DNA of 62,553 nucleotides. It comes from Microcaldota archaeon (GTDB taxonomy: Archaea; Micrarchaeota; Micrarchaeia; Micrarchaeales; CABMGC01). The notes below the pieces were generated by a model that saw only the letters and a program-made list of their open reading frames with translations, made no database searches and was not told the DNA's origin. A program made the position numbers and the translations under genes. Shown piece by piece: positions 28,888 through 32,623 of the stretch. Within the stretch, counting starts at the first letter, position 1. Every line of letters begins with the position of its first letter. The stretch spans positions 1-62,553 of the forward strand of contig JAGWGN010000003.1 in the NCBI GenBank assembly GCA_028867335.1. Reading direction: 5' to 3'.

Positions 28888-29472
28888 TCAGACAAGGTCA
28901 TTGTACATCTTGTCGTTGAACTCGTAGGCCGTGACGTCCTCCCCTGAAAGGGATAGGCCCTCGAGCAGCTTCTCGATGCTGTCGAATCCTCCAAACCCCT
29001 TGTCCATGTCAAATGCGACTATCTTTCCCAAGAACTCCGAGTAGACTATGAACCTCCTCTCATTCGGCTTTATCACGGTTATAACCTTGGCGGTGACATT
29101 GCCAAGCGCGATCAGCATGCTGCACAGAAGAGTCGCCTGGTCGAATATGTCTCCAGCACCCGATTTTATCGTATCGGTTGGGGTAAGCCAGAACTCGATC
29201 GGAAGGCTAACAGTTGAGACCTCATTCTTTACATACTCATATGCAAGCTTCGCGGCCTCAATGTAGTCATTTGGGAAGGAATAGTCGCTGAAGGCATTCT
29301 TTATGCGGTTGGAGACCGCTATGACGCTCTGGTCTGTTGGGAGGATCAGCTTGGGGAGCTCTGCGACGTTTAGGTTCTCCTTCTCCTCAATGTAGTCCTT
29401 GTAGCGCAGTATTATCGCTAGATACAGCTGGTTATACTTCTTGAGCAATTCTGCTTCTTGTGGTGTCTCCAT
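28888..29472 (-). CDS. Transglutaminase-like fold protein lacking the expected catalytic Cys/His
   Basis: PTDTIKSGAGDIFDQATLLCSMLIALGNVTAKVITV aligns with the GDCED.A.LL..LLRA.G pattern, with Cys replaced by Ile. Confidence 0.6.
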   Translation of the reverse strand: METPQEAELLKKYNQLYLAIILRYKDYIEEKENLNVAELPKLILPTDQSVIAVSNRIKNAFSDYSFPNDYIEAAKLAYEYVKNEVSTVSLPIEFWLTPTDTIKSGAGDIFDQATLLCSMLIALGNVTAKVITVIKPNERRFIVYSEFLGKIVAFDMDKGFGGFDSIEKLLEGLSLSGEDVTAYEFNDKMYNDLV

Positions 29473-29550
29473 CAAAACGCTCGATGAGTTAAGTTTAAAT
29501 ATTAAACCGATTTTATATAGCTTAGAAAGAGATAATAGCATATTGTTCTG

Positions 29551-30528
29551 TTGATTCTAGGAATGCTGCTTTCAGAAATTTGTGACGATGAGAGTATGGC
29601 AGAATGCTTTGAGAAAATACCTGGAGAAGTTTGGGTCGGATGCGGGGATAGGAGAATAAATGAGGAATTGGATAGGTTGGCAGACGAAGAACATAAGTCT
29701 CACATGGTAGACATATTCACGCCAAGGAATGCTGCGGGAAACATTAAAAGTCTACCAAAAACAATTGAAAGACATATAAGGGAAAATCTGAAAGAAGACG
29801 GAACTTGTAATATCCAGAAGCTAAAGATAATAGGACACACGAAATGCGGTGCTTTAGACATCGTGTTCGACGTCTTGACGGGAAAAATGCAGGTAGACAT
29901 ACAGCTTAGAGAGGTCCTGATTAACCAGTATAAGGACTTCAAGGTTAATCTGGAGTTAAGCAGAGAAGAAAACTTGAGGGTACTAGAGAAGTTTCACCTT
30001 GAAAAACAGGAAGAAAATGCTCGGCAATTGCTTGATTATATCCAAACCAAGACGGGGATAAATACGAGTGGAATAATAATTGAGAGTATGCTTATCGATA
30101 CTGATGCCGTCGATAAGACCGAATCCCAGCCGGATTATAAAAACATGAGGTATGTGGTGGTGGTTGATACACCGCTGAAAAATAAAAAGTTTACTGGAGT
30201 TGTGGACCAGATTAGAAATACGGACAGATGTTGCAACAAATACACAACATATTTTTTCAATGTGGATCCGGAGGATTGCGCCACGGGATTGCAGATATTT
30301 GCCAGGCTAGGTGCTGAAAAGTTCTACGTTTCCTATGAAGAAAAGATAGATAATGCCAGAAAAGATGGCCTTAGTGTGGAGATGCTCCAAAGGGTCATGC
30401 AAGTTAGGAGTTCTGTATCACAAGTAAACAAGGACTCACAGGTAATACCGATTAAGACTGAGGGTTTGCACGAAAGCAATTTGCAATCATACAGAATCAG
30501 CTCTGCAATTAAGACCAAAGTGCACTAA
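29551..30528 (+). CDS. Divergent beta-carbonic anhydrase-like protein (325 aa)
   Basis: VWVGCGDRRI (CxDxR), TPRNAAGNI, LKIIGHTKCGALDIV (HxxC); TTG start or ATG 29563. Confidence 0.65.
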   Translation: MILGMLLSEICDDESMAECFEKIPGEVWVGCGDRRINEELDRLADEEHKSHMVDIFTPRNAAGNIKSLPKTIERHIRENLKEDGTCNIQKLKIIGHTKCGALDIVFDVLTGKMQVDIQLREVLINQYKDFKVNLELSREENLRVLEKFHLEKQEENARQLLDYIQTKTGINTSGIIIESMLIDTDAVDKTESQPDYKNMRYVVVVDTPLKNKKFTGVVDQIRNTDRCCNKYTTYFFNVDPEDCATGLQIFARLGAEKFYVSYEEKIDNARKDGLSVEMLQRVMQVRSSVSQVNKDSQVIPIKTEGLHESNLQSYRISSAIKTKVH

Positions 30529-30538
30529 GAGCATCAAA

Positions 30539-31060
30539 TCATTTGGACAGGGCCAACCCGGCCTTAAGAATTCCGAGCACAAGAGCGTATGGGGTGGGAG
30601 GGTTTCCAGGGACTCTTATAGCTACTGGCACCACTTCTTCTACTCTGCCGCTTTTGTACACTGCGCTGCTTTTTGAAAATAGTCCTCCGCTTACAGCCCC
30701 GTCACCTGCAGCAACAACAGCCTTAGGAGAGGGCATGGCAGCATACGTCTTTTCCAAAGCTCGTTTCATGTTTACAGAAACTGGACCGCTTACGAGCAGA
30801 ACGTCTGCGTGCCGTGGTGAGGCTGTGAAGTGTACTCCGAACCTCTCGCAATCAACCTGAGGCGAATTTGCAAGTCCCTCCTCAATCTCCACATCGTTGG
30901 AAGAACCGCAGTCTATCATCCTTACGGTGATTGAACGAGCAAATGGTGAAAGCGAGCGCTTCTTGAGCAGCTCGGCGATTTCTCTTATGACTTTGGAGTC
31001 CGAATCCTTGGAGATTTTGTCCGTTTTTGGATTTTTCAACAATGCGTGGAATTCATTCAT
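30539..31060 (-). CDS. HyfI/NuoB-like small subunit lacking all four cluster Cys
   Basis: DCGSSNDVEIE...VDCERFGVHFTASPRHADVLLVSGPVSVNM...GDGAVSGG...VPGNPPTP. Confidence 0.85.
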   Translation of the reverse strand: MNEFHALLKNPKTDKISKDSDSKVIREIAELLKKRSLSPFARSITVRMIDCGSSNDVEIEEGLANSPQVDCERFGVHFTASPRHADVLLVSGPVSVNMKRALEKTYAAMPSPKAVVAAGDGAVSGGLFSKSSAVYKSGRVEEVVPVAIRVPGNPPTPYALVLGILKAGLALSK

Positions 31061-31069
31061 TCTATCACC

Positions 31070-32623
31070 CTACAAATCTGCCCCCGAATATGAGAGATTG
31101 AAGCTTTTATTTATCAGAGGGAAATCGGCAATTATATTGGATTTTACGGCTTTCTCGATCGCCCTCCAGTTGCGGAAGGAGGCGGTTCTGATAGAAAGTC
31201 TGGCAAGCCTTCCTTTTTTCCCAAATTGAACCACAAACGTGCATCCTCCTCGCGGGGCTTCACATACACCTATCCCGAAGCTGCCAGATGGAATTCCGGC
31301 CAACGCCTTATCTGTTTTTGTAGCGACTGGACCCGATGGAATTTCATTTATCTCGGATGAGATCAGTCTAATCGACTCTTTCATTTCGCCGAGTTTGACT
31401 GTAAAGCGGGCAAGGACATCTCCATCTGAGGCAATGACCTCCTTGAATTGGCGCCTCGCATATGCGCCGTATGGAAGATGCCTGCGGATATCGCAACTTA
31501 TTCCGCATGCGCGGGCGGCGGGCCCTACAAGTGCAAGCTCCTTGGCAGTCTGAGGAAATACTCTTCCGGTGGTAAAGACCCTGTCCAAAAATGTTGATGA
31601 GGTCATTGTAAGGCCCTCGACCTGAAGCAAGTATCTGGAAAATTTGGCCAAGGCAGCTTTTAATCCGCCGAGTTTCTCTGGTGCGATGTTCCTAGAAACT
31701 CCCCCTATGACAACCAGATCTCTGAGGAAGCGGTTCCCGAATGTCGTTTCGTTGAGGCGCATCATTTCCTCCCTCAGCAAAAGAAACTGAGAAGAGGAGG
31801 CATAGTAGCCTATGTCCATGGACATCCCTCCTAGATCTGCAAGATGATTGTAGATTCTTTCCATCTCCAGAAGGATAAGACGTAGCGATTCGGAACGGGA
31901 TGGCACCTTTATTCCACATGCGCTTTCTATGGACTGGGCGTACGCTACGGAATTCGAGACAGATTCGTCACCGGATATCTGCTCGATTAAGGGGAGGAGC
32001 GTGGCGGCTTCCTTGTTCTCTGCGAGCTTCTCTGTGCCCTTATGTAGATAGGATAGACGCACTTCCAGTTTGTTAATTTTTTCACCTATCACATGAAACC
32101 TGAAATGTCCCGGCTCTATTATCCCTGCGTGCACAGGGCCGACTGGGATCTGGAACTCACCCTCCGCGCCGGTGCCTGCAAAGTTGTATCCTGATGCTTT
32201 GGGGGTTTTTTGCCTCTTCACAAATTTGGCACTCTCCGGATGAATTAGTATAGGACGCTGGTCCTGAAGGCCGATAAACTTTTTGCCTGATCTCTCAAGC
32301 ATTTTCCTCTCGTCCCAAACAGACCCGGGGATTAATTCGGAGATGGAGTGAAAAACGCTAGAGTGCGCCCAGAAAATTAGCATCTTGCCAAACTTTGGCA
32401 TGCGGAAAAGATACGCAGCTGCCCATTCCCCCGAACTGGAATAGGGGTATGCGAAACCGGAATCGAAAACGCCGCCACGGGTGAGGCATTGTGAGCAGGC
32501 CTCAGGGATTGCTTTCGGATCAGTCTGGACCCAAACGGCGGACTTGGAATCGGCAACCCTGAGCTTTTTGAGTACCGGCTCTTTTGCGAGTTCCTCGATG
32601 AATTTTTTGAGTTTCGTATCCAT
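31070..32623 (-). CDS. HyfG/NuoCD-like large subunit lacking all NiFe Cys ligands
   Basis: PVGPVHAGIIEPGHFRF, YLHKGTEKLAENK, IEQISGDESVSNSVAYAQSIE, ERIYNHLADLGGMSMDIGY, C-term SFNLSYSGADL. Confidence 0.88.
   Translation of the reverse strand: MDTKLKKFIEELAKEPVLKKLRVADSKSAVWVQTDPKAIPEACSQCLTRGGVFDSGFAYPYSSSGEWAAAYLFRMPKFGKMLIFWAHSSVFHSISELIPGSVWDERKMLERSGKKFIGLQDQRPILIHPESAKFVKRQKTPKASGYNFAGTGAEGEFQIPVGPVHAGIIEPGHFRFHVIGEKINKLEVRLSYLHKGTEKLAENKEAATLLPLIEQISGDESVSNSVAYAQSIESACGIKVPSRSESLRLILLEMERIYNHLADLGGMSMDIGYYASSSQFLLLREEMMRLNETTFGNRFLRDLVVIGGVSRNIAPEKLGGLKAALAKFSRYLLQVEGLTMTSSTFLDRVFTTGRVFPQTAKELALVGPAARACGISCDIRRHLPYGAYARRQFKEVIASDGDVLARFTVKLGEMKESIRLISSEINEIPSGPVATKTDKALAGIPSGSFGIGVCEAPRGGCTFVVQFGKKGRLARLSIRTASFRNWRAIEKAVKSNIIADFPLINKSFNLSYSGADL

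Follow-up and report, generated by a model that had tools for sequence, protein, structure and literature searches.

The window, a stretch of 62,553 nucleotides from a micrarchaeotal genome of 0.96 Mb in 61 contigs, is predicted to encode a five-subunit Ehr complex that has no [NiFe] site, no small-subunit Fe-S cluster and no ferredoxin-type subunit, and that lies at a carbonic anhydrase (CA) locus. Loss of the [NiFe] site alone is what defines the known Ehr family and has already been described: Ehr complexes lacking the [NiFe] ligands, and of unknown function, have been reported from Riflemargulisbacteria (PMC6349859), ammonia-oxidising archaea (PMC10432482), comammox Nitrospira (PMC10284858) and CPR bacteria (PMC7304191). 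What is new here is the loss of the small-subunit cluster and the link to the CA locus. Among papers readable without subscription, a literature search found none tying Ehr to carbonic anhydrase and none on loss of the Ehr small-subunit cluster.

Subunit composition and the former [NiFe] site

The genes run on the minus strand in the order HyfB, HyfC-HyfE, HyfF, HyfG and HyfI, the large subunit being the fourth of five (Table 1); within the fusion protein, residues 328-536 match the NCBIfam hydrogenase 4 membrane subunit (6.7e-16). As in Ehr, a membrane arm of the HyfB/C/E/F type is combined with HyfG- and HyfI-type large and small subunits. The same five genes occur in thirteen further Micrarchaeota genomes, HyfC and HyfE being fused in all of them, and two more Ehr copies (G071 and G072) lie at contig ends. 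On a wider scale, an alignment-guided scan gathered 579 relatives from bacteria and archaea; a contig scan for close relatives with the single protein found none, nor did a search of viral contigs for relatives.

Table 1. Features of the Ehr locus, with positions in the window
Feature	Position	Strand	Basis
Beta-carbonic-anhydrase-like protein, convergent with HyfI	29551..30528	+	Pfam Pro_CA, profile match
HyfI/EhrS-like small subunit, 173 aa, without the four [4Fe-4S] ligands (S54, V57, G121, N153)	30539..31060	-	alignments, model
Fourth cluster ligand position, Asn153	30602..30604	-	alignment
Third cluster ligand position, Gly121	30698..30700	-	alignment
Former CxxC of the proximal cluster, SNDV	30890..30901	-	alignment
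HyfG/EhrL-like large subunit with N-terminal NuoC-like part, 517 aa	31070..32623	-	Pfam, phmmer, AlphaFold model
Former L2 [NiFe] motif, NLSYSG (S511, G514)	31082..31099	-	alignments
Former L1 [NiFe] motif, ISGDE (S217, E220)	31964..31978	-	alignments
HyfF-like (NuoM/N-type) antiporter subunit, 488 aa	32626..34092	-	NCBIfam hydrogenase 4 subunit F, E 7e-105
HyfC (NuoH-like)-HyfE fusion, 540 aa	34102..35724	-	Pfam NADHdh 4.8e-41 and NCBIfam hydrogenase 4 membrane subunit
HyfB-like (NuoL/MrpD-type) antiporter subunit, 666 aa	35728..37728	-	NCBIfam hydrogenase 4 subunit B, E 9.2e-185

The channel residues of HyfB (E154, K235, H249, K266, H360, H364, K368 and E423) and HyfF (E135, K222, H338, K342 and E397) are conserved, as are the Lys, Glu and His residues of the HyfC channel. 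Across the five genes dN/dS is 0.07-0.32 in the three gene pairs with unsaturated dS, which marks the complex as under purifying selection; pseudogene decay of the complex was rejected on these values and on the conservation. The intact antiporter residues would also suit a plain Mrp-like cation/proton antiporter serving pH or Na+ homeostasis, with a vestigial peripheral arm and with CA and Ehr as alternative answers to cytoplasmic pH stress, the more so as CA also buffers pH. We regard this account as unlikely: of the five subunits, the peripheral small one shows the highest conservation (55-76% identity to the window among the Micrarchaeota copies, the large subunits reaching 46-57%) and hence not vestigial, and the precise, repeated replacement of CA described below fits carbon supply better.

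The large subunit is of the NuoD/HycE type (Pfam Complex1_49kDa, 3.4e-43), and in a phmmer search it aligns along its length with HycE of E. coli FHL (7z0s_E, E 4.6e-57), its best solved relative, and with P. furiosus MbhL (6cfw_L, E 2.7e-45). The sequence-only reading of this DNA had held that all four [NiFe] cysteines are replaced, L1 ICGxC having become ISGDE and L2 DPCxxC having become NLSYSG. Both alignments bear this out, CGIC of the hydrogenases corresponding to SGDE and DPCYSC to NLSYSG, and in a 97-sequence alignment the ligand columns hold S217, E220, S511 and G514 in the window and CCCC in four hydrogenases of the same phylum. Other conserved cysteines at the ligand positions were looked for in the alignment, and none was found. 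An AlphaFold model built from 14 orthologues (pLDDT 77) superimposes on E. coli HycE with Z 42.5 and rmsd 2.3 over 462 residues; pLDDT is low in the C-terminal 25 residues, which belong to the former active site.

None of the 14 Micrarchaeota Ehr large subunits retains a [NiFe] cysteine, and the set is missing in 92 of 92 aligned Ehr large subunits, with just one sequence, L144, having a Cys at a single ligand position. In place of the ligand motifs, N505-K506-S507 and Y512 are invariant in all 92, which also share a terminal Asp, and the window protein carries this NKS...SY[SA]GxD C-terminus. To judge by these alignments, the ligand replacement is a conserved signature rather than decay or chance. 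An alternative metal site built from new cysteines, which had been suggested along with the ligand loss, did not survive the comparison: C461 is kept in 13 of 14 Micrarchaeota large subunits and C377 in 12 of 14, these positions are I, V, L or A in most other Ehr, and the new cysteines are thus conserved in Micrarchaeota only.

Loss of the remaining redox centres

The loss of the small-subunit cluster, the absence of an electron-transfer subunit and the CA locus, all more informative than the [NiFe] loss, had escaped the sequence-only reading. The fold of the small subunit is kept, since its model (pLDDT 82) best matches a NuoB-type subunit of complex I with Z 16.6. In the 54 cluster-bearing Ehr the four cluster ligands are present in 53, 54, 54 and 54 sequences, position by position; cluster cysteines are found in 0 of 14 Micrarchaeota copies, which have S/P, V, G and N/S, and in 0 of 7 other archaea-type relatives, which have D, T (one A), D and N. 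These seven comprise two Methanoregula, a Methanosarcina MAG, Altiarchaeales, Bathyarchaeota, another euryarchaeal MAG and one Dehalococcoidales MAG. CPR bacteria, with T, C, D and D, have lost three of the four ligands. In the large-subunit tree the 21 archaea-type sequences form a single clade (SH-aLRT 98) that excludes the CPR sequences, so that the cluster ligands were lost twice: the predicted cluster-less state is common to a 21-member, almost wholly archaeal clade, and the CPR loss is independent of it. As the small-subunit cluster is usual in Ehr but lies outside the published definition, which is the missing [NiFe] ligands, the window complex is a variant Ehr.

Several relatives show further departures from the usual arrangement. 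The CPR loss of three ligands is seen in L129, L138 and L100, and in L129 and L100 the Ehr cluster apparently lies near F-type ATPase genes, as judged by eye from the translations. Ehr small subunits of L112, L115, L116, L118 and L091 carry a two-[4Fe-4S] ferredoxin-type extension, a trend opposite to that of the window. An Altiarchaeales MAG has two tandem Ehr-type operons (L090:3667-10833 and L090:14601-19293), the first cluster-less and the second running off the end of the stretch.

Nor do the surroundings offer an electron route. No ferredoxin-type CxxCxxCxxxC ORF adjoins any Micrarchaeota copy, and the sole one nearby, in L056, is 3 kb away. HypD was absent in 14 of 14 Ehr genomes searched, which are incomplete MAGs, and present in 2 of 3 genomes with an intact hydrogenase; the Ehr set therefore has neither the two large-subunit CxxC motifs nor the HypD of a group 4 hydrogenase. 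The NuoB N2 ligands and the NuoI-type two-cluster subunit of respiratory complex I are likewise lacking, with no such ORF adjacent. A complex I distinct from it is encoded on contig C11 of the window genome and keeps the NuoB cysteines. Because the [NiFe] and [4Fe-4S] ligands, a ferredoxin-like subunit and HypD are all missing, the complex has no recognisable redox centre, and we infer that it would be unable to carry electrons by any known route.

The CA link would be incidental if the complex were an ordinary Ehr, an ion pump driven by redox chemistry in which electrons take an unrecognised route, through substitute ligands or through a quinone or flavin partner whose gene lies elsewhere. 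Most Ehr do retain the small-subunit cluster, FDH-Ehr partnerships have been proposed (PMC6349859), and a metal might conceivably be bound by the Asp and Asn that replace the ligands (D, T, D, N) in the euryarchaeal sister clade. The residues of the Micrarchaeota copies, however, are incapable of binding a [4Fe-4S] cluster, these copies have no ferredoxin-like gene next to them, and the exclusion and substitution of CA are left unexplained, which makes this alternative quite improbable.

Ehr and carbonic anhydrase at one locus

The relation between the two systems is clearest in two Micrarchaeota families, f3 and f4, with 63 genomes (G060-G122, incomplete MAGs). Ehr was found in 12 and canonical CA in 43, with no canonical CA anywhere in the 12 Ehr genomes (hypergeometric p 4.7e-8, ignoring kinship); canonical CA here means the beta class at E below 1e-20 and does not cover the gamma class, and Ehr absence was judged by a large-subunit search that missed two genomes with split contigs. 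Eight genomes have neither. The exclusion is mirrored in the gene order. In f4 the CA slot is aRF1-[CA]-GlmS, and Ehr occupies the same slot, accompanied in some genomes by purE and CA-like genes (compare aRF1-purE-CA-fam4-fam3-GlmS in G092 with aRF1-Ehr-purE-fam3-GlmS in G084). In f3 Ehr occupies the CA slot of aRF1-[CA]-nbrA-nbrB, as a comparison of G061 with G062, both of one genus, shows. In the Ehr-less genomes of genus g63 represented by loci L241-L245, two or three carbonic anhydrase genes stand in tandem between aRF1 and GlmS.

The aRF1 tree requires at least five changes between the Ehr and CA states, although the loci of the accompanying pair test were picked for having either state and five pairs cannot reach 0.05. 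The Ehr of genus g57 do not form one clade (p-AU 2.6e-4), and those of family f3 and of family f4 likewise are not single clades; the complex therefore entered the CA slot repeatedly.

Family f1, to which the window belongs, presents a different arrangement, in which the CA-like gene is kept beside Ehr and not replaced. Two genomes of the same genus without Ehr (G001 and G003) have the order AlaRS-M50-MBF1-FEN1-Hsp20-TGase-CA, followed by M48, LemA, TMK and GlyA, and the window has the same AlaRS-to-GlyA block with Ehr inserted directly beside the CA-like gene. In another f1 genus, the Ehr-positive G181 reads FEN1-TGase-AspRS-CA-like-Ehr, and G168, G180 and G183 have FEN1-TGase-AspRS-CA at that place. 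A transglutaminase-like gene (28888-29541 in the window) is conserved at the f1 CA locus with or without Ehr. Since the surroundings differ between f1 and f3/f4, what Ehr is linked to is the CA locus rather than a particular chromosomal segment.

This bears on the possibility that the CA locus is merely a spot tolerant of insertion and the Ehr-CA relation passive synteny. Neighbours such as aRF1 and GlmS are conserved too, and two exceptions depart from the CA locus: G276 carries a canonical CA as well as Ehr, each at a locus of its own, and G054 has Ehr without CA context. Insertion, however, needs no loss of CA, yet the 12 f3/f4 Ehr genomes have no canonical one; Ehr sits at the CA locus in both f1 and f3/f4 despite the different gene surroundings; and its entry occurred more than once. 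We therefore hold passive synteny to be very improbable. Outside Micrarchaeota the link is weak, CA being nearby in one of seven cluster-less Ehr, that of a Methanoregula.

The CA-like gene of the window is the only Pro_CA match found in its genome. Its Pfam score of 23.8 (E 6e-5) lies just below the cut-off of 25.7, and it matches a profile of the phylum CAs at E 1.3e-6. Aligned with these, it has CxDxR (C31, D33, R35) and HxxC (H96, C99), and thereby the C/H/C zinc ligands and the Asp-Arg dyad of a beta-CA. CxDxR genes make up 15 of the 43 adjoining Micrarchaeota Ehr, 0 of 62 farther out and 1 of 206 beside other Ehr, the 15 including two fam2 genes not counted as CA homologues. These fam2 neighbours of about 700 aa (L066 6255-8303 and L071 11563-13785; CDDGR...HxGC) were set aside as CA candidates, the one tested having no profile similarity.

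Motif and synteny analysis reveals several highly divergent CA-like families beside Micrarchaeota Ehr, and because of this divergence blastp with the window gene found no CA beside other copies. In the A3 family C, D, R, H and C are invariant; in the A4 family the order of the motifs is permuted; L070 11278-12561 passes the Pfam Pro_CA cut-off; and the CA-like protein of G181 has GCxDxK, RNAGG and HGG...CGG, with a profile score that by itself is not significant. The A3 family (L066:15851-16987 and seven homologues) departs from HxxC in that 27 residues separate His from the second Cys. The members of the permuted family (L069:6650-7861, L069:7968-9152, L070:12767-14110 and L072:11989-13140) carry the HGG..CGAV half ahead of CCxDARL, which would suit a circularly permuted beta-carbonic anhydrase, and the C-terminal half of these proteins aligns with canonical CA at E 1.6e-6. 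Many of the CA-like neighbours run convergently or divergently to Ehr and lie outside its operon, and members of the same families are found alongside canonical CA where a genome has no Ehr; they therefore need not be subunits of the complex.

Proposed function and known systems

Because Ehr replaces CA at its locus, the complex probably supplies the cell with inorganic carbon in the form of bicarbonate, free of cofactors and driven by an ion gradient. Most likely, the membrane arm would power CO2 hydration, or the accumulation of bicarbonate, with a gradient of H+ or Na+. The retained large and small subunits, the adjacent CA-like proteins or both would form the CO2/HCO3- module, with the former [NiFe] cavity or the CA-like neighbours as candidate sites of the CO2 chemistry. 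It is tempting to hypothesize, and quite possible, that a redox-free machine of the complex-I/hydrogenase type acts as a gradient-driven vectorial carbonic anhydrase on a complex-I frame, or as a bicarbonate accumulator, that has repeatedly displaced CA in DPANN archaea. Ehr complexes are widespread and lack a known function, and the replacement of CA offers a concrete, testable one. A conserved complex-I relative without any redox centre would, moreover, separate the ion-pumping half of such machines from electron transfer.

The window complex shares with described Ehr the Hyf-like membrane arm, an EhrL without [NiFe] cysteines and an EhrS homologue, and the two types are sister clades in the large-subunit tree. 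Unlike described Ehr, it has lost all small-subunit cluster ligands and lies at the CA locus, and the Micrarchaeota copies have HyfC fused to HyfE. Group 4 [NiFe] hydrogenases (HycE/HycG of E. coli FHL, MbhL/MbhJ of P. furiosus) have the same fold of large and small subunits and the same subunit types, but the window complex has no [NiFe] site, proximal cluster or HypD.

The closest functional parallels may be found among systems for CO2 handling. DAB, whose work is likewise driven by an ion gradient, joins in DAB2 a complex-I-type subunit to a CA module, a likeness to the NuoL-type subunit and CA-like partner of the window (PMC13144422), and MpsAB and CA are interchangeable and seldom coexist, resembling Ehr as an alternative to cytoplasmic CA across genomes (PMC8552792). 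The complex is nevertheless no DAB, since DabA (PF10070) was absent in 18 of 18 genomes searched, and it differs from DAB/MpsAB in having five subunits, including NuoH-, NuoB- and NuoD-like parts. In cyanobacterial NDH-1MS/MS' (CupA/B), complex-I-type subunits with a CA module carry out CO2 hydration driven by electron transfer (PMC6981117); the window complex would share the coupling of a complex-I frame to CO2 hydration, but has no recognisable redox centre. The replacement of CA points to a recruitment of complex-I-type machines into CO2 handling in archaea too, in parallel with DAB and NDH-1MS. By analogy, the best explanation would be that the complex works like DAB/MpsAB or NDH-1MS, built from different parts.
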